DNA of 64,000 nt from Nostoc linckia FACHB-104 (GTDB lineage Bacteria; Cyanobacteriota; Cyanobacteriia; Cyanobacteriales; Nostocaceae). Positions 2,661 to 22,868 of this stretch are shown here, in pieces; positions within the stretch are counted from its first letter, which is position 1; every line of letters starts with the position of its first letter. Location of the stretch: NCBI RefSeq assembly GCF_014696615.1, contig NZ_JACJQJ010000005.1:62001-126000 (forward strand), written 5' to 3'. The notes under the pieces were generated by a model. That model was not told the DNA's origin. It worked only from the letters and a program-made list of their open reading frames with translations, and ran no database searches. A program made the position numbers and the translations under genes.

Positions 2661-2851
2661 CTAACCGCGCAGCCAGAAATACGAAAAGTCTGATAAATGA
2701 AGAGTTTGCCGCTAACAAACGCTTAAAAATGCTGAGTAGTAATACCTGATAATTATTGCTTGCGTAAATGTATGTAAATTATTATATTCTGCCTTTCTAG
2801 TTGGGAAATATAGGAAGTGAGCGCCCAACTCTAGGGAAAGGAGAAACGATA

Positions 2852-5800
2852 GTGTTAACTTCGATAATACCAGGTTATGACTTACTAGAAATTATATCTG
2901 AAGGAATTAACACAACTGTTTACCGGGCTAGGTCGCAAAAAAACCAGCAGCGTGTAGTTCTAAAAGTTCTCAAGGCTGAATATCCCTCTTTTGAGCAAAT
3001 TACTCGCTTCAAGCACGAATATAAAACTACAGAAAATCTTAACTGCGAGGGTATTGTTAAAGTTTATAGCCTAGAGAGCTATCAAAATCGACTAGTGTTA
3101 GTAGCAGAAGACTTTGGTGGTATCAGTCTTAAACAGTTTCTCTCTTTGCAACACATTGGTGAAGCTTCTTTTTTAAAGATTGCTGTGCAATTAGCTAAAG
3201 CATTGTTATCGCTACATCAGAATCGCATTATTCATAAAGATATTAAACCTGCCAATATTATTGTTAATCCCCAGACTGGGATTGTTAAAATTACAGATTT
3301 TAGTATTGCATCACATTTAGATAAAGAAACACCGCAACAGACAAATTCTCATCAATTGGAAGGGACAGTTGCTTATATGTCTCCTGAACAAACCGGGAGA
3401 ATGAATCGTGCTGTCGATTATCGCAGTGATTTTTATTCTTTGGGGATTACATTCTATGAGATGCTAACTGGTCAATTACCTTTTGTAACTGACGATTTAC
3501 TGGAGATGTTTCACTCTCATATTGCCAAGCCAGTTACACCAATTGCACAGTTGAAACCAGAAGTTTCTAAAACAATCGCGGCGATTGTGATGAAATTAAT
3601 AGCAAAAAATGCTGAAGACAGATATCAAAGCGCATTAGGACTATTAGCAGATTTAGAATTTTGTCTTGAGCAATTAGAAACTACAGGTAATATTCCTGAT
3701 TTTACCCCCGGACAACGCGATCGCACTTCTCAATTACTTATCCCCCAACAATTATATGGCAGAGAAGCGGAAGTTATTACCTTGCTGCAAGCATTTGAGC
3801 GTATTAGCCAGGGGAAAAGCGAAATCATGTTGGTTTCTGGCTACTCTGGGATTGGTAAATCATCGCTGGTGAATGAGGTACATAAACCTATCATCAGACA
3901 GAGGGGTTATTTTATTGATGGGAAATTCGATCAATTTAAACGGAATATCCCCTACGCTTCTGTAATTCAGGCTTTTCAATCTTTAATACAGCAATTATTA
4001 ACTGAAAGTAGCGACAGGTTAACAGCCTGGAAAGAAAAACTGCTGCAAGCGCTGGGTAGTAATGGTCAAGTAATTATTGATGTGATTCCCGAAGTAGAAT
4101 TAATCATTGGTAAACAGCCTGAAGTTCCACAGTTAGGCGCAGCTGAAAGCCTCAATCGCTTTCATCGTCTATTTCAGTCTTTTATTCAAGTTTTTGCTCA
4201 ACAATCCCATCCTTTAGTATTATTTCTCGATGATTTACAATGGGCTGATTCTGCTTCTTTAAAATTAATTCAAGTCTTAATGACTAATCCAGATAGTCAT
4301 TACTTACTATTAATTGGTGCATATCGAGATAACGAAGTCGGCCCCAGCCATCTATTGATTAAAACTTTAGAGGAAATTGCCCAAGCTGATACATTTATTA
4401 ATAGTATTGTGTTACGTCCATTAGAATTACCTTATATCTATCAACTGCTAATAGATACTTTAGGAGATTCTGAAAAAATCCTAGAATTAGCAAAAATTTT
4501 ATTTAATAAAACTCAAGGTAATCCTTTCTTTTTAACCCAACTAATTAAAGCACTCTACCAAGAAAATCTGCTGCAATTTGATTTTCACAAAGGAATTTGG
4601 TGTTGGGATATACAGCAAATTCAAACGAAGAATCTTGTAGATAAAGATGTTGTCGAGTTAGTTGCTAGAAACATTCAAAAGCTGCCGGAAGCTACGCAAA
4701 CAGCCTTACAATTAGCAGCTTGTATTGGCAACCGTTTTAGTTTAGATGTATTGGCAACTGTTAGCACCAATAATCTGCAAAGATTAGCGCAAGCCCTGCA
4801 ACCTGCTTTGCAATTAGGTCTAATTTTACCCCTGAATAATGAATATCGAATACCTTTACTCTTTGCCACTGAAGAGTTAGCTGTTTTAGACTTTGATGAC
4901 TCTCATATTAGCTATAAATTTTTGCACGATCGCGTCCAACAAGCTGCCTATTCTCTCATTCCCAACCATCAAAGAAAAGTTACGCATTTAAAAATTGGGC
5001 AGCAGTTGTTACAAAATACACCTGCTGAGCAATTAGAGGAAAACATTTTTGATATTATTAATCAACTGAATGTGGGTGCTAGCTTAATCAGCAAGCCCTC
5101 CCAGAAGCAACATTTGGCGGAGTTAAATTTGCTGGCTGGGAAAAAAGCCAAAGCCGCAACCGCTTATTTAGTGGCGATCGCCTATTTAAATACTGGTATA
5201 AAACTTTTAGCAGCAGATAGCTGGTTCAGTGAATATGACTTGACTTTAGCCTTGATGGTGGAAGCCGCAGAAGCAGCATATCTCGGTGGTGATTATCAGT
5301 TGATGGAGAATTTAGCTAGTCAAGTATTACAAAATGCCCGCACCCTACTTGATAAAGTGAAAATTTATGAGGCGAAGATTCAGGCTTATGTTGCCCAAAG
5401 TAGACAACCGGAAGCAATCAAAACGGCTTTAACTGTCTTAGAACTTTTGGGTGTAAGGTTCCCTGATGCGCCTAGCCAAGCAGATATAACTGAAAGTCTA
5501 CAAGCAACGCAACTAATATTAGACGGAAGAAGTTTTGAGGATTTAATCGATCTACCAGCAATGACAGATCCGCAAATCTTAGCAGTGATGCGGATTATCG
5601 CCACAGTGACGGCGGCTGTATATCAAGCAGTACCGATGTTGTTACCCTTAATTGTCTTTAAGCAGGTAAGACTATCAGTACAATATGGCAACGCCCCAGT
5701 TTCTACTCTCGCCTACGCTTGGTATGGAGTGATTCTTTGTGGAGTCATCGGGGATATTGATGCAGGCGATCGCGCTGGGAAACTTGCATTAGGTTTGCTA

Positions 5801-8269
5801 TCAAATCTCCAGGGTAAAGCGCTGCAAACTAGTACTTTCAATATGATTTACCCGTTCGTGAAGCCGTGGAAGCATCATATTCGTGAGTCGCTACTACCTT
5901 TATTAGATGCACATCACACAGGCTTAGAAACAGGGGATTTAGAATACTCAGCTTACTGTGCCTACAATTATTGCAGCCTTTCTTACTTCCTAGGCAAGGA
6001 ACTGAAAACCTTAGAACCAGAGATGGCAATTTACAGCCAAGTTTTAGATAAAATCAAGCAGGAAGTAGCCCATAATTATCTCAAAGTATTTCGCCAATCT
6101 GTATTACATCTCATTAGTGATTTTTCCTTAATTGGCAAGGTGGCAGGTGTAGCATATAACGAAGAAATCATGCTACCGCTACATTTGCAAGCTAATGATC
6201 GCTATGCCATTGGTACTTTATACGTCAACAAATTAATTCTCTGTTATCTATTTGGCGAGTATCAGCAAGCCGCAGAAGTAGCTGATTTAGCGAAAGAATA
6301 TTTAGATGGGGTAACTGGTTCATTTATGGTGCCAGTTTTCCACTTTTATGATTCTCTCACCCAGCTGGCGATGTTAGCCCACACTCCAAGTTCAGAAAAA
6401 GAACCTTTGTGGTTGCGGGTGGTTGCTAACCAAGAAAAGCTGAAAACATGGGCAAATCATGCACCCATGAATCACAAGCACAAGTATTGCTTAGTGAAAG
6501 CCGAGTACCATCGCGCCCTGGGTGAGTATTTAGAAGCGATGGAATATTATGATTGCGCCATTGCTGGTGCTGCTGAACATGGTTACATTCAGGAAGAAGC
6601 CCTAGCAAATGAACTCGCCGCCGAAATGTACATATCAATGGGTAAGAAAAAAATTGCCCAAGTTTACATGACAGAAGCTTACTATGGTTACCACCGTTGG
6701 GGTAGTACTGCCAAAGTCAAACACCTAGAAAAACAATACCCCGACTTAATTCTTCGCAGCAATAATGCGATGTCTACGACGGGCTACGCCTACGCTTCTA
6801 CTGGTAGCATCTCTAGAACATTCAAATTAGATGCATCTCTCAGTTCGCACTCAACAACTAGTAGCGGTATCAACCTGGATATCGCCACAGTAGTCAAAGC
6901 GAGTGAGGCGATTAATAATGAAATCTCCTTAGAAAGTTTACCGCGCACGCTGCTACATATCATTTTAGAAAATGCTGGTGCCCAAAAAGGTTGCTTAATT
7001 TTAGTCAAAGATGAGCAACTAATTATTGAAGCTATTGATAGTAGTATGGTTGATTCGCAAATTATTTTGCTATCAACTCCTGTAGAAGAAAGCGAACTGG
7101 TACCCAAAAAGCTGATCAACTATGTAGCGAGAACTCAGCAACCTTTGGTAATTAGAGATGCCAAACTTGATCCGGTTTCTAATAAAGATACATACATCCA
7201 AAATCATGAATGTAAATCAATATTATGTGTGCCTATTTTTTATCAAGCCAAATTCATTGGCATATTTTACCTAGAGAATAATTTAATTACTGGTGCATTT
7301 ACTCCCGAACGCCTAGAACTGTTAAAAATACTGTCTTCTCAAGCTGCGATCGCGCTTAAAAATGCCCGTCTCTATGCCAAAGAACAAGAAAAATCTCAAG
7401 ATTTAGCCGCAGCATTATTACAACTGCAACAAACCCAAAGCCAACTTGTACATACAGAAAAAATTTCCTCTTTAGGACAGTTAGTAGCGGGAGTCGCCCA
7501 TGAGGTAAATAATCCTGTTAGCTTTATTTTTACTAACCTAACTCATGCCAAGCGCTATATCGAAGACTTAATTAATTTACTACATCTTTATCAACAGTAT
7601 CTATCTAATCCCCCAGCAGAAATTACAGAGGAAATTGAAGCTATAGATTTAGATTTTGTTTTAGAAGACTTACCAAATATGATTTCTTCTATGAAAGAGG
7701 GAACCCATCGGATTCGAGATATTATGCAATCTCTACGCAATTTCTCACGCAAAGATGGCTTAGATAAAAAGGCGGTAAATATTCATGAGGGTATTGAAAC
7801 CACGCTGATGATTTTATCCCATCGTTTAAAGGCTTATCCTCATCGTCCAGCAATTCAAGTAGTTAAGAATTATAGTGATTTACCCTTTATTGCTTGTTAT
7901 CCTGGGCAATTAAATCAGGTATTTATGAATTTGCTAGCCAATGCTATTGATGCTTTAGAAGAGTCTAATGAAGGCAAGAATTATGCTTTTATAGAACAGC
8001 ATCCCAATGTCATCACAATTTCTACCACAGTCAGCGATCAACAAGTAAAAATTTCGATTGCTGATAATGGGATGGGAATTCCAGAGTCAGTCAAGGAAAA
8101 AATTTTTCAAGCGTTTTTTAGCACTAAGCCAGAAGGGAAAGGTACAGGTTTAGGACTATCTATTAGCCATCAAATAGTTACCAAAGTCCACAATGGTACT
8201 TTTGAATGTGTTTCTTCCCCTGGTGAGGGTGCAGAATTTATTATTCAGATTCCTATTGATAGGAATTAG
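2852..8269 (+). CDS. HstK-type Ser/Thr kinase-AAA-GAF-histidine kinase
   Basis: 1805 residues from GTG 2852, preferred because AAAGGAGA (2837-2844) sits just upstream; an in-frame TTG at 2801 lacks this. Order: Ser/Thr kinase about 10-270 (Lys38, H128-K-D130, DFS 149-151 instead of DFG, then a SPEQTGRMNR activation segment); AAA/NACHT-like ATPase with P-loop GYSGIGKS 330-337; long helical TPR-like region about 600-1330; GAF about 1365-1503; coiled coil; HisKA with phospho-acceptor H1550 (VAHEVNNP); HATPase_c with an N-box near 1695, DNGMG from 1738 and GTGLGLSI. This is the architecture of Anabaena HstK proteins. Signal and partner response regulator are unknown; no receiver domain is present. 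Two paralogues lie in this window. Confidence 0.88.
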   Translation: MLTSIIPGYDLLEIISEGINTTVYRARSQKNQQRVVLKVLKAEYPSFEQITRFKHEYKTTENLNCEGIVKVYSLESYQNRLVLVAEDFGGISLKQFLSLQHIGEASFLKIAVQLAKALLSLHQNRIIHKDIKPANIIVNPQTGIVKITDFSIASHLDKETPQQTNSHQLEGTVAYMSPEQTGRMNRAVDYRSDFYSLGITFYEMLTGQLPFVTDDLLEMFHSHIAKPVTPIAQLKPEVSKTIAAIVMKLIAKNAEDRYQSALGLLADLEFCLEQLETTGNIPDFTPGQRDRTSQLLIPQQLYGREAEVITLLQAFERISQGKSEIMLVSGYSGIGKSSLVNEVHKPIIRQRGYFIDGKFDQFKRNIPYASVIQAFQSLIQQLLTESSDRLTAWKEKLLQALGSNGQVIIDVIPEVELIIGKQPEVPQLGAAESLNRFHRLFQSFIQVFAQQSHPLVLFLDDLQWADSASLKLIQVLMTNPDSHYLLLIGAYRDNEVGPSHLLIKTLEEIAQADTFINSIVLRPLELPYIYQLLIDTLGDSEKILELAKILFNKTQGNPFFLTQLIKALYQENLLQFDFHKGIWCWDIQQIQTKNLVDKDVVELVARNIQKLPEATQTALQLAACIGNRFSLDVLATVSTNNLQRLAQALQPALQLGLILPLNNEYRIPLLFATEELAVLDFDDSHISYKFLHDRVQQAAYSLIPNHQRKVTHLKIGQQLLQNTPAEQLEENIFDIINQLNVGASLISKPSQKQHLAELNLLAGKKAKAATAYLVAIAYLNTGIKLLAADSWFSEYDLTLALMVEAAEAAYLGGDYQLMENLASQVLQNARTLLDKVKIYEAKIQAYVAQSRQPEAIKTALTVLELLGVRFPDAPSQADITESLQATQLILDGRSFEDLIDLPAMTDPQILAVMRIIATVTAAVYQAVPMLLPLIVFKQVRLSVQYGNAPVSTLAYAWYGVILCGVIGDIDAGDRAGKLALGLLSNLQGKALQTSTFNMIYPFVKPWKHHIRESLLPLLDAHHTGLETGDLEYSAYCAYNYCSLSYFLGKELKTLEPEMAIYSQVLDKIKQEVAHNYLKVFRQSVLHLISDFSLIGKVAGVAYNEEIMLPLHLQANDRYAIGTLYVNKLILCYLFGEYQQAAEVADLAKEYLDGVTGSFMVPVFHFYDSLTQLAMLAHTPSSEKEPLWLRVVANQEKLKTWANHAPMNHKHKYCLVKAEYHRALGEYLEAMEYYDCAIAGAAEHGYIQEEALANELAAEMYISMGKKKIAQVYMTEAYYGYHRWGSTAKVKHLEKQYPDLILRSNNAMSTTGYAYASTGSISRTFKLDASLSSHSTTSSGINLDIATVVKASEAINNEISLESLPRTLLHIILENAGAQKGCLILVKDEQLIIEAIDSSMVDSQIILLSTPVEESELVPKKLINYVARTQQPLVIRDAKLDPVSNKDTYIQNHECKSILCVPIFYQAKFIGIFYLENNLITGAFTPERLELLKILSSQAAIALKNARLYAKEQEKSQDLAAALLQLQQTQSQLVHTEKISSLGQLVAGVAHEVNNPVSFIFTNLTHAKRYIEDLINLLHLYQQYLSNPPAEITEEIEAIDLDFVLEDLPNMISSMKEGTHRIRDIMQSLRNFSRKDGLDKKAVNIHEGIETTLMILSHRLKAYPHRPAIQVVKNYSDLPFIACYPGQLNQVFMNLLANAIDALEESNEGKNYAFIEQHPNVITISTTVSDQQVKISIADNGMGIPESVKEKIFQAFFSTKPEGKGTGLGLSISHQIVTKVHNGTFECVSSPGEGAEFIIQIPIDRN

Positions 8270-8613: not shown

Positions 8614-8734
8614 AGGGACTTCCAGAAATTAAATTATTCAATCAGCAAGGGCGAAGATATTGAGCAAATTCTGTCTCTCCCTCTGCTCCCTCTGCTACCC
8701 TAGCGACAGTATATTTTTTTAGTTGGAAGTCCCT
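8614..8734. mobile_element. MITE-like element, copy A (121 bp)
   Basis: Ends AGGGACTTCC and GGAAGTCCCT are perfect 10-bp terminal inverted repeats. The interior contains CTCCCTCTGCTCCCTCTGCT. A second copy in opposite orientation lies at 60642-60752 and aligns along its length, including ends and the CTCTGCTCCCTCTGCT core. There is no coding capacity, so it would need a transposase in trans. The right end abuts the stop codon of the AAA+ gene (8734-8736). Confidence 0.7.
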
Positions 8735-11181
8735 TATTCGGTTAATCCCCATTCCAACTTTAGCGTTTCTAGTTTGGGATTTTTTACACTCAATCTTTTA
8801 CATTCATCCAAAAATTCTTTTACCTGTTCTTCGTTGAGAGTTAAACCACCTTCTTGCAGATTATGAATGTAAGTGATGATATCAGCAGTTGTTAGAGATG
8901 CACTGATTTCTTCTAGTAAAACTGCATTTCTCACTTCTCTACATACCAATTCGATATCAGATGAGGTAAACCTGGTACTCTTTTCGGCTAGCATTTCAAA
9001 GTTAATTATTTGATTGAAATCAATTTTTGCTAGATAATGTTGGAATAACTCTATCCTTTCCTTTTGATCGGGGGGAAAAATAGGAATTTTCCAATCTAAT
9101 CTACCAGAACGCTTTAAGGCGCTATCTATACCACTTAAATAATTTGTCGCGCCAATCACAATCACATTGCTATTTCGCAAATTATTTAATTCTATCAATA
9201 ATTGATTAATTGTGGCTTTTTGGTCTGTATGGGCGTTATCTTCATTACGGTTAAAGCCAATACTATCTAACTCATCAATAAATAAAACTGAGGGAGATTT
9301 CTTTTTCGCTTGAGCAAAGATATCTCGAATATTTTTCTGACTTTGACCTATCCATACACTGATAATATCCGCAGGCGAGAATTTAAAAAAATATCTGCCA
9401 GATTCATTAGCGAATGCATTCGCTAAAAGAGTTTTACCGCATCCAGGTAATCCATAGAAGAGAATCCCGCTAATCGCATCTTGATAGCCTTTAGATTGTA
9501 GCCTCAAAAGTTTGGTTAATTTTTCCTTTTCTTCCTTCAAACCTTTAACTTGGCTAAAATCAAGCTTGGTTTCTGGGAGGCGTTGAGTTAAGGGATAAGT
9601 CTGGACTAAACTGCGTTTTTTAGCTGCATATTCAAAAGCTGGATATTCAAGCGCATCAAAAGATACTGGTACTAATTGATGATTTTCATAATCTGGTGCC
9701 ATAACGACAATTTTAAAAGTATCATCATAATAACCAGCTAGTTTATATTCAAGAACTTCTTTAATCTTTTTAATTTGGTAAGAGTTACGCGCAATTTCAA
9801 AACCAGGAAATACTAACCACACAGTATGTAGTTTATTCGGCCAGACTTTGGATTTTTGTAAAATTCTTCTGAGTGAATCCAAGAAAAGATTATTATCTTG
9901 AAATTCTTGATACTTCAGAGTTTCGATTTCCACAATTACCTGATTATCTACATATACAGGGATGATTTCGCTGTGATATTCTTCATACTCATAGCTATCT
10001 TCATCATCGCTGTTTTCCTGGTCTTTGGAACTTAATTCTACTTCACAGCGAATTTTAGACAAATCATAGCCTAAAGCTTCTAAGGTTTTAATCGCAAAAT
10101 ATTTGAGATAAATATATTCTGTACTTTCTTCTCGCCACTTCAAACTATAAAAATGTTCGGCTTTCATGCCGATTAATAGCTGAGAATCAGCCAATATTTG
10201 CGCTTTTTGTAATTCTAGAAAGTAATTTAATAAAGATACCTCATCTTCTTCCATCTCATAACACGGAAGTTCTAACAGGAGACGGAAATGAGCATAAATT
10301 TCTTCTTTATGCTGAATAGCAGTTTCGTTGGGATATTTGCATCGCAGAGTAAAGGTAAAAGGAATTTTACTAGCTACCCTATCTACTAAATAACCTAAAG
10401 CATCTTCTTGTTGCTGTGCTTGAATTTCTGATACAGGTGGGCAATGAAATACTATAAATAATTGTTCAGAATTATATTTATTGGCGTAGACTGATATCTG
10501 TTCAAACTGCTCATCAAATTTTTCGCAATCTAGTAAATCTAAACCAGTAGTGCCGAGAATGACACTAGTCATTGTAGAAAAATAAAAGTGATAAATATTA
10601 GCACCAGATAGGGAATAATCATCATCGTCATTATCGTCATCAGTAGTAATATTTGTATTAAATTTTTGATTCGATGCTGTAGGAATGTTATTATTACCTC
10701 TATATTGATATTTTCTAATTAATTCATAATTTAAAATTTTAGTCACAACATCAGAAAAGAAATCTTCTACTTGGGGAATGAGAAAAATTCCCACTGGTTG
10801 ATTTGAGTCTAAACAAGCCTGAAACCTTTCATATTCTTGCTCAGAACCGAAATCAAATAAGTAATAGAAAAAGTCATGCTTCACTGGAAATGCTGCACTC
10901 AATTTACTAAAAATTGGTTGCACATCAGCAATTTGCACATCAGGAGTGACATCTTTAAGAGAAATAGCCAGTTTAGTATCTAAGGGAATATACAAATCAA
11001 ATAGGGGATCTGTGCAAAGTCCCAATTCAGCTAGCGCATGATTAAAATTATCTACAAAAGCTTGACTGCGACGCTGGTAGCCCAACTGTTCCATAATGGT
11101 TTTAACGCGTAGGCTTTTTTGAGTTCTACCAGTTCGCTGAAGTTCATTCTTAATTGAGCGTAAGTAGCCTGTATATGACAT
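8734..11181 (-). CDS. AAA+ ATPase with unrecognised N-terminal half
   Basis: 815 residues from ATG 11181. The C-terminal third is a classical AAA domain of the FtsH/Cdc48 type: Walker A GLPGCGKT 577-584, Walker B VLFIDELD with D636-E637, then GATN and RSGRLDWKI sensor/arginine-finger regions. The first 550 residues match no family I can name. They include a helical start resembling a winged helix, acidic tracts (TDDDNDDDD; SDDEDSYEYEE) and a segment with alternating strands and helices around VYVDNQVIVEIETLKY that faintly recalls a PD-(D/E)XK nuclease core. Its same-strand neighbour 226 nt upstream is the caspase-like/EAL fusion. Role as unfoldase or remodeller is inferred. Confidence 0.75.
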   Translation of the reverse strand: MSYTGYLRSIKNELQRTGRTQKSLRVKTIMEQLGYQRRSQAFVDNFNHALAELGLCTDPLFDLYIPLDTKLAISLKDVTPDVQIADVQPIFSKLSAAFPVKHDFFYYLFDFGSEQEYERFQACLDSNQPVGIFLIPQVEDFFSDVVTKILNYELIRKYQYRGNNNIPTASNQKFNTNITTDDDNDDDDYSLSGANIYHFYFSTMTSVILGTTGLDLLDCEKFDEQFEQISVYANKYNSEQLFIVFHCPPVSEIQAQQQEDALGYLVDRVASKIPFTFTLRCKYPNETAIQHKEEIYAHFRLLLELPCYEMEEDEVSLLNYFLELQKAQILADSQLLIGMKAEHFYSLKWREESTEYIYLKYFAIKTLEALGYDLSKIRCEVELSSKDQENSDDEDSYEYEEYHSEIIPVYVDNQVIVEIETLKYQEFQDNNLFLDSLRRILQKSKVWPNKLHTVWLVFPGFEIARNSYQIKKIKEVLEYKLAGYYDDTFKIVVMAPDYENHQLVPVSFDALEYPAFEYAAKKRSLVQTYPLTQRLPETKLDFSQVKGLKEEKEKLTKLLRLQSKGYQDAISGILFYGLPGCGKTLLANAFANESGRYFFKFSPADIISVWIGQSQKNIRDIFAQAKKKSPSVLFIDELDSIGFNRNEDNAHTDQKATINQLLIELNNLRNSNVIVIGATNYLSGIDSALKRSGRLDWKIPIFPPDQKERIELFQHYLAKIDFNQIINFEMLAEKSTRFTSSDIELVCREVRNAVLLEEISASLTTADIITYIHNLQEGGLTLNEEQVKEFLDECKRLSVKNPKLETLKLEWGLTE

Positions 11182-11407: not shown

Positions 11408-13669
11408 TCAATGTGGTTTTTCTAAAATTAGCTTTTTCAAATCATCATATTTTTCTTTACTCAAACGATAAATTTCAGGGCTAGGTTTGCCAACAATATG
11501 CCCTTGAATGTAATTCACGCCAAGTTCCTTGAGGCGGTATAAGCTAATAGGAGTAGTTTCATCTATACCTTCTACAATTACATGAGATGGATTCAGGTTA
11601 TTTGCCCCAACTAATTCATGAACAAAGCGGATAATAACATCAGAAGATTGATGATATAAAATATTTCGATCTATTTTGACATGAGAGGGGTGTAATCCTG
11701 CTAAGCGAGAAACTGAAGCATAGCCAACTCCAAAATCATCAATTGCAAATCGAATATGCAGTTGTTTAACGTATTCTATCAATTTAGTTTTAAAAAAGGT
11801 TAAAGGTACTTGCAATCGATGACCATTATTAAACTGTGGTAATTCTGTTTTTTCAGAAATTTCTAATATGAGGTTTCTGGGAGTAATAATTTTATCTTTA
11901 ATTACCTGACGAACTGTTTCAAAGTAAGCTGTTCTGATTAAAGACTCGGGATAAACATTAACTGATAGCGGTGCTATCTCATCTGCTCTATTTTGTTTTG
12001 ATTTCTTTCTTGCTTCTTGGTAAATGGTTGTAGCAGTTCTCAGAAAATACTGGTCAAGTTCAATAGTAAACCTTGTACCCCACATTTCTGCAGCTTGAAA
12101 TAAATCTATAGGAACTGTTAAAGTTTCAGGTTCTCTAGCTAAAGCCTCCCAACTACTAATAAATAATTCATCAGCATCTAAGTGTAAAACAGGCTCAAAA
12201 TGAACAATCATCCTTTGAAGACGGTCGCAGAATAATTGAAATCTTCTTTCATATAGATGTTCTGATACAAAGCCGAAATCTCTTTTTAAATCATCAAGTA
12301 TATGAGCTTCTACTAATGCGGGTTTAAGTGATAGTTTCTGGCTAGCGTTGTAAAAGCTAGCTAAAATACGCCCGTATACATCTCCCAAAAGATAAGAATC
12401 TTGAGATATACCACAAACTACTATAACCTCTGCTTCTGGTAACCCTCTCAAAGGTATGAGTACAAAAGCTTTAACTACACCATTTTTATCTTCATGCAAC
12501 CGATATATACCATGATAAGAAGGGTTGAAAATAGATAAACGTGAAACAGCAGGTAAAATATGTAAGTTTAAAGTATTAAAATAAAAACTACTATCTATAT
12601 CGTTATAAGGGCTACTGTGTGATTTAACTGACCAATTATCTTTATTATCAATAGTAAGTATAAATACAAAATCAGCCTTAGAATTATGCTTAATTATATT
12701 TAATATTTGAGAAGTATTATTATTAGATTTTAAAGTTTCATTTACTAAATTGGTAAATTGTTGGATTAAATTTGTAATGAAGTCTTCATAAGGTTCTAGA
12801 AAGTTACGAAGCTGGAATGTTGGTGCTTCTAGGTTGTATGTATCTCCCGATGGTTTTACTGTAGCTAACCTGACTTCCCTCCAGCTATGATTTTGAAAAT
12901 CTTCCAGATTTTGTTGTGTGGTTATATTTTGGGTTTGAGCAATAACAACATCAAATCCTTCATCCTTCAAGACAATTATTTTAGGTTTCATGCTGAAAGC
13001 ATTTTCTTCTAATCGCTCACAAGCATATTTATGTAACTCACGTGCTGCAATTTTACCATCTTGGTCTAAGTCCCCTGCTCCTGTTTCTATTCCCTCTACT
13101 AAATAACGTGTGTAAACGGAAATATCAGATCCTTGTTGTTCAAAAGAATATTGAGTGGAACTAGAAGATGCAAGAACAACCCTCCCTTCAGCACCAAGTT
13201 GACTCTGTAAATCGACCGAACCATCATCTTTTGCTATTAATGAAGGGTCAAATGCTGCACTAAAGCAACAGTCAAGAATAATTACCTGTCGTTTAGAACG
13301 ACTATTATTCATTTGGTCATGAACAAAACTTGCAGCAACAGCAGTTGATTTAATTAGTTGATTCTTTAAGTTTGTGCGGGTGATGCGAGTAGAAAAATAA
13401 AATCTACCGTTTTCATCCTTGATTCCATGTCCTGAAAAATACAGCAGTAGTATATCTTCTTTATCACGACCAGAAAAAAACGTTTCAATTTCAAATTGCA
13501 TAGTGTGAGTGTCAGAGTTGAGCAATATTTTCACCTCATCAAACCCACCTATTTTGGGATTCTGCAACACTCGCTGCATAGCTTTGACATCTTTAACAGC
13601 AGCCTGAAGGGGATTTAGCCCAGACTCATACTCACTTACGCCAATTAGCAATGCTATTTTCTTAGTCAT
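11408..13669 (-). CDS. Caspase-like (C14)/EF-hand/EAL fusion protein
   Basis: 753 residues from ATG 13669. Residues 1-230 are a caspase/metacaspase-like peptidase: ALLIGVSEY start, catalytic His81 in YFSGHG and Cys135 in ILDCCFS. A complete EF-hand-like loop (D200, D202, D204, G205, I207, E211) follows inside the same domain. Residues about 280-465 look like a GAF-type sensor. The C-terminal 270 residues are an EAL cyclic-di-GMP phosphodiesterase domain, with E508-A-L510, conserved N in NVYPESL, E in LEISE, D644-D-F-G647, VKID and YIQGHIVGKP. Key residues for both enzymes look intact. Such a protein could link c-di-GMP and Ca2+ to proteolysis; that is inference. The AAA+ gene follows on the same strand. 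Confidence 0.8.
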   Translation of the reverse strand: MTKKIALLIGVSEYESGLNPLQAAVKDVKAMQRVLQNPKIGGFDEVKILLNSDTHTMQFEIETFFSGRDKEDILLLYFSGHGIKDENGRFYFSTRITRTNLKNQLIKSTAVAASFVHDQMNNSRSKRQVIILDCCFSAAFDPSLIAKDDGSVDLQSQLGAEGRVVLASSSSTQYSFEQQGSDISVYTRYLVEGIETGAGDLDQDGKIAARELHKYACERLEENAFSMKPKIIVLKDEGFDVVIAQTQNITTQQNLEDFQNHSWREVRLATVKPSGDTYNLEAPTFQLRNFLEPYEDFITNLIQQFTNLVNETLKSNNNTSQILNIIKHNSKADFVFILTIDNKDNWSVKSHSSPYNDIDSSFYFNTLNLHILPAVSRLSIFNPSYHGIYRLHEDKNGVVKAFVLIPLRGLPEAEVIVVCGISQDSYLLGDVYGRILASFYNASQKLSLKPALVEAHILDDLKRDFGFVSEHLYERRFQLFCDRLQRMIVHFEPVLHLDADELFISSWEALAREPETLTVPIDLFQAAEMWGTRFTIELDQYFLRTATTIYQEARKKSKQNRADEIAPLSVNVYPESLIRTAYFETVRQVIKDKIITPRNLILEISEKTELPQFNNGHRLQVPLTFFKTKLIEYVKQLHIRFAIDDFGVGYASVSRLAGLHPSHVKIDRNILYHQSSDVIIRFVHELVGANNLNPSHVIVEGIDETTPISLYRLKELGVNYIQGHIVGKPSPEIYRLSKEKYDDLKKLILEKPH

Positions 13670-20063: not shown

Positions 20064-22868
20064 ATGCAAAATACAATTAATTCTACTATCGAACCTGCCT
20101 ACGATATTCTCCGCACCGAGAAAGCTAATCCCCTTGATTTCATCTTTGCACCGCGCAATGTAGCTGTTATTGGTGCTACCGAAAAACAAGGTAGTGTGGG
20201 ACGGACTTTGTTATGGAATTTAATTAGCAGTCCTTTTGGTGGTACTGTTTTTCCCGTCAATCCTAAACGTAATAGCATCCTGGGAATCAAAGCCTACCCA
20301 ACAATCTTTGATGTGCCAGAAAAAGTAGATTTGGCAGTAATTGCTACTCCAGCAGCCACAGTTCCCAATATTATTGCTGATTGTGTCAAAGTAGGCGTAA
20401 AAAGCGCTATTATCCTCAGCGCAGGTTTTAAAGAAGCTGGGCCAGAAGGGATCGCTTTAGAACAGCAAATTCTGCAACAAGCCCGTCTCGGTAATATGCG
20501 GATCGTTGGCCCCAACTGCTTGGGTGTGATGAGTCCCCAATCTGGACTGAATGCCACCTTTGCTAGTGCTATGGCGCGTCCTGGTAACGTCGGCTTTATT
20601 AGTCAAAGTGGAGCGCTTTGCACAGCCATTCTCGATTGGAGTTTTCGGGAAAACGTTGGTTTTAGCGCCTTCGTTTCCCTAGGTTCCATGCTAGATGTAG
20701 GCTGGGGCGATTTAATTTATTATCTGGGTGACGATCCCCATACAAAAAGTATTGTAATTTACATGGAATCTGTGGGTGATGCCCGGTCATTCCTCTCAGC
20801 AGCTAGAGAAGTAGCTTTAACTAAACCAATTATTGTAATTAAAGCCGGTCGTACCGAAGCCGCCGCCAAAGCCGCAGCTTCTCACACAGGAGCATTAGCA
20901 GGTAGTGATAAAGTTTTAGATGCTGCTTTCCGCCGTTGTGGTGTCCTGCGCGTCAACAGTATCTCTGACTTGTTCGATATGGCAGAGGTGTTAGCCAAAC
21001 AACCCCGTCCCAAAGGCCCACGCCTGACAATTCTCACCAACGCTGGCGGCCCTGGTGTTTTGGCTACCGATGCGTTAATTTCATCCGGTGGCGAAGTTGC
21101 ACCAATTTCCGAACAAACTCGCACCGCCCTCAACGAATTTTTACCTACCCATTGGAGCCACGACAACCCCGTTGATATTTTGGGTGATGCTGATCCCCAA
21201 AGATATACCAAAGCTTTAGAAATTGCTGCTCAAGATCCTAATAGTGATGGCTTATTGGTGATTCTGACACCGCAATCGATGACAGATCCCACCGCTACAG
21301 CCGAACAACTGAAACACTATGTAGAAAGTTCACAGCAAAAATCTCAGCCAGTTAAACCCATCCTGGCCAGTTGGATGGGAGGTGCAGATGTAGCAGATGG
21401 GGAGATGATTTTAAATCGTCAAAGTATCCCGACTTACGCTTATCCAGATACGGCGGCGCGTGTATTTAGCTATATGTGGCAATCTAGCTATAACTTGCGC
21501 GGTATTTATGAAACTCCGGTATTACCAACTATCGATTCTGCTTCTGGTATCCCCAATCGCCAATATGTGAATAAAATCATCCAAACTGCCAGACTAGCAG
21601 GGCGGACTATTCTCACCGAGTTTGAATCGAAGGAAATCTTAGCGGCTTACGGTATTCCTGTAGTTGGTACTTGTATTGCTCGCAATGAGGAGCAAGCGGT
21701 TGAATGCGCGGAAAAATTGGGCTATCCTGTCGTTCTGAAGCTTTTTTCGCACATTATTACCCATAAAACCGATGTCGGCGGTGTGCAATTAAATATCACC
21801 GATGCAGAAGCCGTCAGACGCGCATATCGCGCTATTGAATCTGCCTTACAAGAGAAGGTACAAACCGATCCTCATTACGCAAAACTCGGCAGCGAAAATC
21901 CAGATATCTTCTTGGGTGTTACCGTGCAACCAATGGTGAAAACCCACGGTTATGAACTCATCATTGGTAGTAGCCTCGATCCGCAATTCGGGCCAGTATT
22001 GCTATTTGGTACAGGCGGACAACTAGTAGAAGTTTTCCAAGATAGAGCGATCGCCCTTCCACCCCTCAACTCTACCCTAGCGCGGCGGATGATGGAGCAA
22101 ACGCAAATTTATAAAGCGCTAACAGGCGTTAGAGGGCGTAAGAGCGTAGATATGGAAGCTTTGGAACAATTAATGGTGGCATTTAGCCAATTAGTTGTCG
22201 AACAACGCTGGATTAAGGAAATTGATATTAACCCCTTGCTAGCTTCCGAAGAACAATTAATTGCCTTAGATGGGCGGATTATCCTCCATGATGTCGATAT
22301 TACAGAAGAACAACTACCAAAATTAGCGATTCGCCCCTATCCTACACAGTACATAGGACGATGGACGATGAGAAATCAAACTCCAGTTACCATCCGTCCT
22401 ATCCGTCCCGAAGATGAACCTTTAATGGTGCAATTCCACCACACCCTCTCAGAGGAAAGCGTTTACTTCCGGTATTTCCACCTCATTAAATTAAGTCAAC
22501 GAGTCGCCCACGATCGCCTCACAAGGATTTGCTTTATCGACTACGATCGCGAAATTGCCTTAGTAGTGGAAGCGCAAAACTCCACCAAAGAAGCCAAAGA
22601 AATCTTAGCAGTAGGGCGCTTAAGTAAAGTACATGGCACCAACACCGCCGAATTTGCCATTGTGGTAAGCGATCGCGTTCAATGTCAAGGCGTAGGTACA
22701 GAATTACTCGGACGACTCATCGAAATCGGGCGAGATGAGCAACTCAGTAAAATTACGGCTGATATATTATCAGAAAATCATGGAATGCAAAAAGTCTGCG
22801 AAAAACTTGGTTTCCGCATTCAACGCACCGCAGATCCTACAGTAGTTAAAGCCGAGTTTGATTTGTAG
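20064..22868 (+). CDS. ADP-forming acyl-CoA synthetase / GNAT fusion (Pat-like)
   Basis: 934 residues. Order: CoA-binding domain about 25-120, succinyl-CoA-ligase-like domains about 160-460 with candidate phospho-histidine H274 in [13 protein letters not shown]-grasp about 500-720 (including [10 protein letters not shown]), and a GNAT acetyltransferase about 765-930 with acetyl-CoA loop [10 protein letters not shown]. Proteins of this layout are either ADP-forming acetate-CoA ligases or lysine acetyltransferases (Pat/PatZ). Retention of H274 leaves room for real synthetase activity, giving ATP plus acetate from acetyl-CoA in fermentation. Close coupling to hoxW (9 nt) supports a role in the same anaerobic metabolism or in acetylation control of it; both are inferences. 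Confidence 0.87.

Follow-up and report, generated by a model that had tools for sequence, protein, structure and literature searches.

Among the closest described systems is the EACC1-caspase "System 4" (Kaur et al. 2020, PMC7159879), characterized there as a two-gene conflict system with C-terminal domains of as many as 50 kinds and with EACC1 as the proposed membrane-inserted activator of the caspase. The section of that article on the system makes no mention of EAL, and the whole-word count for EAL in its main text is 0; the main text of PMC8195603, on the EACC2-caspase systems, gives whole-word counts of 0 for both EAL and c-di-GMP. The main text of an orthocaspase census (PMC8283722) reports, among 473 cyanobacterial orthocaspases, two with EAL and one with GGDEF, EAL being confined to one list entry and Table 1. 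Within the open-licence literature searched, this census alone pairs EAL with peptidase C14 or metacaspase as whole words, PMC7475262, which reviews the caspase homologues of cyanobacteria, yields counts of 0 for EAL and c-di-GMP, and a functional account of a caspase-EAL fusion was not found. In the initial annotation of the locus studied here, such a fusion was not known to be characterized, which holds for its function in the literature searched, whereas the pairing with EAL as such is already tabulated in the census.

For the second messenger, the main text of PMC13075795 describes that c-di-GMP below about 50% of the wild-type level ends the viability of Anabaena PCC 7120 through the receptor CdgR, and that an emergency cyclase, Alr3599, restores c-di-GMP at the lethal threshold; CdgR is identified in the text of PMC12313861 as the ComFB homologue Alr3277. 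Caspase homologues are numerous in multicellular cyanobacteria, but little is known of the processes that they switch on. Here, we analyzed a stretch of 64,000 nt from Nostoc linckia FACHB-104 (contig NZ_JACJQJ010000005.1, positions 62,001 to 126,000), referred to as the window, in which a caspase-like peptidase and an EAL domain are encoded by one gene.

Domains of the caspase-EAL protein

A single open frame of 753 codons, with an ATG start and without internal stop, spans exactly positions 11408-13669 (-) of the window and encodes a protein of 753 aa. Its residues 1-246 (12932..13669 (-)) constitute a caspase module of the EACC1-associated type: Pfam Peptidase_C14 matches residues 3-221 (E 2.8e-22, 80.0 bits, cut-off 21.4), NCBIfam NF047832 ("caspase, EACC1-associated type") matches residues 6-222 with 160.9 bits against a cut-off of 140, and the PADLOC model "caspase" matches with E 6.2e-17. 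The His-Cys dyad of orthocaspases and peptidase C14 is supplied by H81 (codon 13427-13429 (-), in SGHG) and C135 (codon 13265-13267 (-), in LDCCFS). Also within the module lies an EF-hand-type loop, residues 200-211 (DLDQDGKIAARE; 13037..13072 (-)), which follows the pattern D200-x-D202-x-D204-G-K-I-x-x-x-E211.

The C-terminal residues 485-753 (11411..12217 (-)) form a predicted EAL phosphodiesterase domain, matched by Pfam EAL over residues 484-729 (E 2e-26, 93.2 bits, cut-off 31.3) and by EAL sequences of the PDB, of which MucR (5m1t) is closest. The domain contains E508-A-L (E508 codon 12146-12148 (-)) and D644-D-F-G (D644-D645 codons 11735-11740 (-)), and alignment to the PDB sequences finds the metal- and substrate-binding residues in place, i.e., all eight of the active-site set, which we take to be E508, N571, E603, D644, D645, K665, E700, and Q722. 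The C14 and EAL profile scores are far above chance. Thus, the presence of C14 and EAL in one polypeptide, first read from the letters and the translation, was borne out by matches above the Pfam and NCBIfam cut-offs, and both dyad residues, the loop, and the two EAL motifs are where they had been placed; the EACC1-associated type of the caspase and the recurrence of the middle and EAL domains with several peptidases and EAD4, described below, had been missed. The EAL domain is diverged, scoring 96 bits to Pfam EAL compared with 228-273 bits for the other six EAL domains of the host, in which we counted 7 EAL, 11 GGDEF, and 2 ComFB-family matches altogether. The fusion is not an assembly artefact, as full-length relatives, 88, 83, and 72% identical over the best segment, occur in other genomes with names (Calothrix membranacea FACHB-236, Nostoc sp. 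106C, Mastigocoleus testarum BC008, and a Mastigocoleus MAG).

Between the two enzyme domains, residues 285-484 (12218..12817 (-)) form an uncharacterized middle domain without a Pfam family above cut-off in the 47 members scanned. With E up to 1 as the limit, the 47 together matched 21 Pfam families, none of them a GAF model, and two members showed a faint match to iSTAND (E 0.022). An AlphaFold2 model of this domain built from seven sequences was usable (pLDDT 68.5, pTM 0.70). Its Foldseek matches in the PDB were weak (best E 3.8e-4, TM about 0.4), with a dual-sensor histidine kinase at the head of the list and Rag GTPase complexes, Rag/longin-type chains, GAF domains, and phytochromes lower down. 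The GAF-like middle of the initial annotation is therefore a possible fold, hinted at by weak matches of the model to GAF chains but not by a profile. The only matches of the middle-domain profile to PDB sequences were to dUTPases (best E 0.049) and were taken as chance. A model of the full-length protein from seven sequences was discarded (pLDDT 41.4, pTM 0.30), so that, of the structure predictions, which had been recommended as a check, the middle-domain model alone was used.

Partners of the caspase module and of the middle+EAL unit

The host genome (9.4 Mb) contains 31 C14 matches. Residues from about 3 to 246 of the fusion are 41-66% identical to the N-termini of many other proteins that diverge beyond this point, which set the edge of the module near residue 246. 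We gathered 43 such paralogues from the host and its relatives and scanned 20 of them with Pfam. Fourteen had a partner domain above cut-off: GUN4 in six, FGE-sulfatase and periplasmic-binding-like domains in two each, and amidase_3, TPR, WD40, and Clp_N in one each. No partner reached the Pfam cut-off in the other six, two of which showed matches below it, to EAD9 and DUF3288. In one relative (L023 250-2238 (-)), an N-acetylmuramoyl-L-alanine amidase domain is joined to the same caspase module, and in two others (L060 950-3469 (-) and L166 704-3238 (-)) the module is combined with periplasmic-binding-protein-like domains and has an EACC1-like gene upstream. Position 81 is His in 42 and position 135 Cys in all 43 paralogues. 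The EF-type loop motif is found in 38 of the 43 as well as in all 21 fusions of this caspase type to EAL (see below); therefore, the loop is a feature of the caspase rather than of the fusion. The motif behind the suggested Ca2+ response is not peculiar to this protein.

Most of the 14 partner domains look like sensors or scaffolds. By analogy with them, the middle and EAL domains may be the sensor and the caspase the effector, so that the level of c-di-GMP, by binding or turnover, would gate the proteolysis of other proteins. A GAF-like middle domain, weakly matched as it is, would be a usual sensory module. We consider this direction possible but less likely than not, considering how the EAL domain is retained across genomes.

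A survey of proteins containing both domains, likewise recommended beforehand, was run in Nostocaceae with residues 285-484 as the query, and it revealed that the pairing of C14 with the middle and EAL domains (the middle+EAL unit) recurs. The unit is present in 51 of 217 genomes at 52 places, as one genome, 38% contaminated, holds two; for sorting, one copy per genome was used. It is fused to the same EACC1-associated caspase type (C14a) in 21 genomes, to a second C14 type (C14b) in four, to CHAT in three, and to EAD4 in one (G029), whereas it stands alone in 21 and is truncated by a contig end in the last (G025). The C14b fusions comprise three genes and a plasmid copy in G002, a 757-codon frame across the record start of Tolypothrix PCC 7712 plasmid NZ_CP063797.1 (L085 with L182). 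Two of the CHAT fusions are intact genes (L128 3176-5215 (-) and L129 3155-5173 (-)), combining the CHAT peptidase-like domain with a distant middle+EAL unit, and the third, G017, is broken, its first piece matching CHAT. In the EAD4 case (L084 6012-7922 (-)), this adaptor domain was identified by Pfam with E 7.1e-18. Three of the 21 standalone cases (G115, G113, and G024) are followed on their strand by another caspase gene, which contains GUN4 in the two cases scanned, and a fourth (G199) has an EACC1-like gene downstream.

Beyond the family, an order-wide sample of 388 genomes, which contains members of Nostocaceae too, had the middle domain in 11, 10 of them inside the family and one outside (G394, a 528-codon frame without a long N-terminal domain). 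A middle-domain match was not found in phages. On plasmids, 980 records gave some match but none had a single place covering 80% of the query; the best match was again NZ_CP063797.1, with its C14b fusion running across the record start.

EAL-derived c-di-GMP receptors usually lose active-site residues. Here, all eight are present in 50 of the 51 copies, fused or not, and the G017 piece shows all seven that it covers. This is more than binding would require and speaks against the EAL domain being a sensor only, as do the retention of the unit as a standalone protein in 21 genomes and the EAD4 fusion, which has no protease and fits a recruited signaling enzyme. Because of the intact active site in nearly all copies, the standalone forms, and the EAD4 fusion, we favor the effector direction, in which the phosphodiesterase is under the control of the caspase; the sensor direction is favored by those partners of the caspase module that resemble sensors. 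Of the two directions that the initial annotation had left side by side, a protease tuning the phosphodiesterase thus appears favored over c-di-GMP tuning the protease, though the many sensor-like partners lend the latter some probability.

History, selection, and neighboring genes

In a tree of the unit (50 rows, G017 excluded), fused and standalone forms are intermixed, and six changes are needed to account for the C14a label, at least three of them forced by well-supported branches. The caspase tree comprised the 21 fused and 43 other caspases, several rows being long-branched. Here, the fused caspases are scattered: a main group of 17, which also contains two other proteins, a second set of G212, G214, and G218, and finally G078. 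A single clade for all 21 was rejected (p-AU 4.7e-12), so the unit joined different caspases or had its caspase exchanged. For the main 17, the AU test gave p 0.025, but this hypothesis was named after viewing the tree and is not relied on. The trees fit both caspase exchange by recombination and repeated new fusion, which cannot be told apart from them. Loss of the caspase also occurs: Tolypothrix FACHB-123 and Calothrix brevissima NIES-22 have a unit without caspase, the alignment of which nevertheless starts within the caspase tail, at residue 236. Just upstream of it, Tolypothrix FACHB-123 retains a caspase remnant (residues 65-90, E 1.5e-4), and the same place in Calothrix brevissima NIES-22 gives a match at chance level only (E 0.8).

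These two cases, together with the intermixing in the unit tree, are what one would see if a promiscuous caspase module had been fused by accident to a phosphodiesterase that works as a housekeeping enzyme and to which the caspase contributes little. The fusion in G166 (L132 3161-5446 (+)), in which Ser replaces the catalytic Cys135, points the same way. However, all 21 C14a fusions retain H81 and 20 of them retain C135, and the pairing recurs with C14b and CHAT. Recurrent pairing with two C14 types, CHAT, and EAD4 argues that the link was selected rather than accidental. In three pairwise comparisons of the window with relatives, dN/dS was 0.066-0.092 for the caspase, 0.061-0.121 for the EAL domain, 0.162-0.206 for the middle domain, and 0.434-0.527 for the linker, values that are rough for the widest pair, where dS approaches or exceeds 1. 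Selection seems to have maintained both enzyme domains, and of the four parts it is the caspase that shows the lowest dN/dS (0.066) in the closest pair, which speaks against a caspase of little consequence. An accidental fusion therefore seems improbable to us.

The linker, residues 247-284 (12818..12931 (-)), is the fastest-evolving part, and in the alignment of the 21 fusions it has no invariant Lys or Arg. Release of the phosphodiesterase by the protease was one of the original suggestions; autocleavage between the domains as its route is not upheld by this alignment. The two basic residues K147 and R163 are invariant in all 21 fusions, but they lie behind the catalytic Cys and ahead of the p10 part, and the role of R163 may be structural.

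Compared with the nearest relative, that of Calothrix membranacea at L075 7565-9829, the synonymous divergence of the window fusion is 0.11 in the caspase, 0.54 in the middle domain, and 0.38 in the EAL domain, which suggests recombination near the domain border. In the same comparison, hcp, hoxH, and part of 20064-22868, all in the vicinity, are at 0.11-0.18 and the AAA ATPase at 0.28.

The 815-aa AAA ATPase (8734-11181 (-)) adjoins the fusion. Being on the same strand at a distance of 226 nt and matching PADLOC IetA with E 3.9e-37, it raises the question of a defense component in which the fusion would work with this IetA-like neighbor. Its score for the anti-phage ATPase of NCBIfam is 113 bits of the 510 asked, though, and among the flanks of seven distinct fused relatives it lies beside the fusion only in Calothrix membranacea (L039 and L075), not in L041, L045, L076, L077, or L078 (L040 ends too early to show it). 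A conserved operon with the ATPase was dropped after this comparison of flanks, and we regard such a defense partnership as very improbable. Elsewhere in the window, 2801-8269 (+) encodes a hybrid of 1822 aa with Ser/Thr kinase, AAA_16, GAF, and histidine kinase parts.

As for the other gene of the EACC1-caspase system, no EACC1-like match was detected within 1500 nt upstream of the fusion in the window (E up to 0.01). The fusion itself has the layout of the 3′ gene of that system, an N-terminal EACC1-type caspase with a variable domain behind it, but a 5′ gene encoding EACC1 is missing from the window. Six of the 21 fused relatives have an EACC1-like gene immediately 5′ of the fusion, and two more, the two Mastigocoleus genomes, have an EACC1-like remnant there. 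Such a gene also lies 5′ of 25 of the 43 paralogues, three of which give no more than a short partial match. Of the three relatives' proteins that were scanned, two stayed below the Pfam EACC1 cut-off of 23.6 bits, at 16.8 and 19.5 bits, and the third had no match; the name "EACC1-like" is tentative for this reason.

Possible role and comparison with described systems

As far as comparative data can tell, the fusion is real, conserved, and recurrent. We tentatively read it as a solo (EACC1-less) derivative of the two-gene EACC1-caspase conflict system, whose variable C-terminal domain would be a regulated c-di-GMP phosphodiesterase, an interpretation to which we give nearly even chances. It builds on what the comparisons show, namely the predicted catalytic sets, the caspase module, a swappable unit recurring with C14, CHAT, and EAD4, and purifying selection. 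The trigger of the caspase could be Ca2+ via the EF-type loop, or perhaps a stress or invader signal once relayed by EACC1. The triggered caspase, by cleavage or a change of shape, would then switch the attached phosphodiesterase. A drop in c-di-GMP would leave CdgR/ComFB ligand-free, upon which the cell would shrink, stop growing, or die. That the fusion protein makes use of the CdgR viability threshold we infer by analogy with Anabaena. Several observations weigh against this reading: the window has no EACC1-like match upstream of the fusion, none of the Lys or Arg residues of the linker is invariant, the sensor- and scaffold-like partners of the paralogues would make EAL a sensor too, and the unit stands alone in 21 of 51 genomes. 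Moreover, the kill step is taken from another species, where the emergency cyclase Alr3599 would oppose a draining effector.

In its strongest form this would be caspase-triggered suicide or dormancy, in which the phosphodiesterase is unleashed, c-di-GMP falls below the lethal threshold of CdgR, and those cells of the filament that are infected or damaged die or stop. We think this rather unlikely. If true, suicide or dormancy by draining a housekeeping second messenger, built repeatedly with different caspase-like peptidases, would be a new pathway. A protease-gated phosphodiesterase could thus act on cell fate, and since the substrate of the attached domain is defined and measurable and its lethal threshold has been measured in a related organism, a link from caspase to cell fate is directly testable.

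The Anabaena threshold, as presented in the main text of PMC13075795, also concerns filamentous cyanobacteria, and the host of the fusion has the two ComFB-family matches; however, a protease is absent from the pathway described there, the count for "caspase" in that text being 0. With the cyanobacterial orthocaspases of the census (PMC8283722), the protein shares the His-Cys dyad and a multidomain architecture. The EACC2-caspase systems, as outlined in PMC8195603, are also cyanobacterial and combine a constant caspase with a variable C-terminal domain, but there the caspase comes after the EACC2 domain. Unlike the EACC1-caspase pairs, the fusion in the window is without an EACC1-like upstream gene, yet it resembles what PMC7159879 describes of them in its N-terminal EACC1-type caspase, its variable C-terminal domain, and the EACC1-like 5′ gene of some relatives. 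With EAL phosphodiesterases such as MucR (5m1t) it has all eight active-site residues in common, and it differs from them in a diverged EAL domain with a peptidase joined to its N-terminal side.
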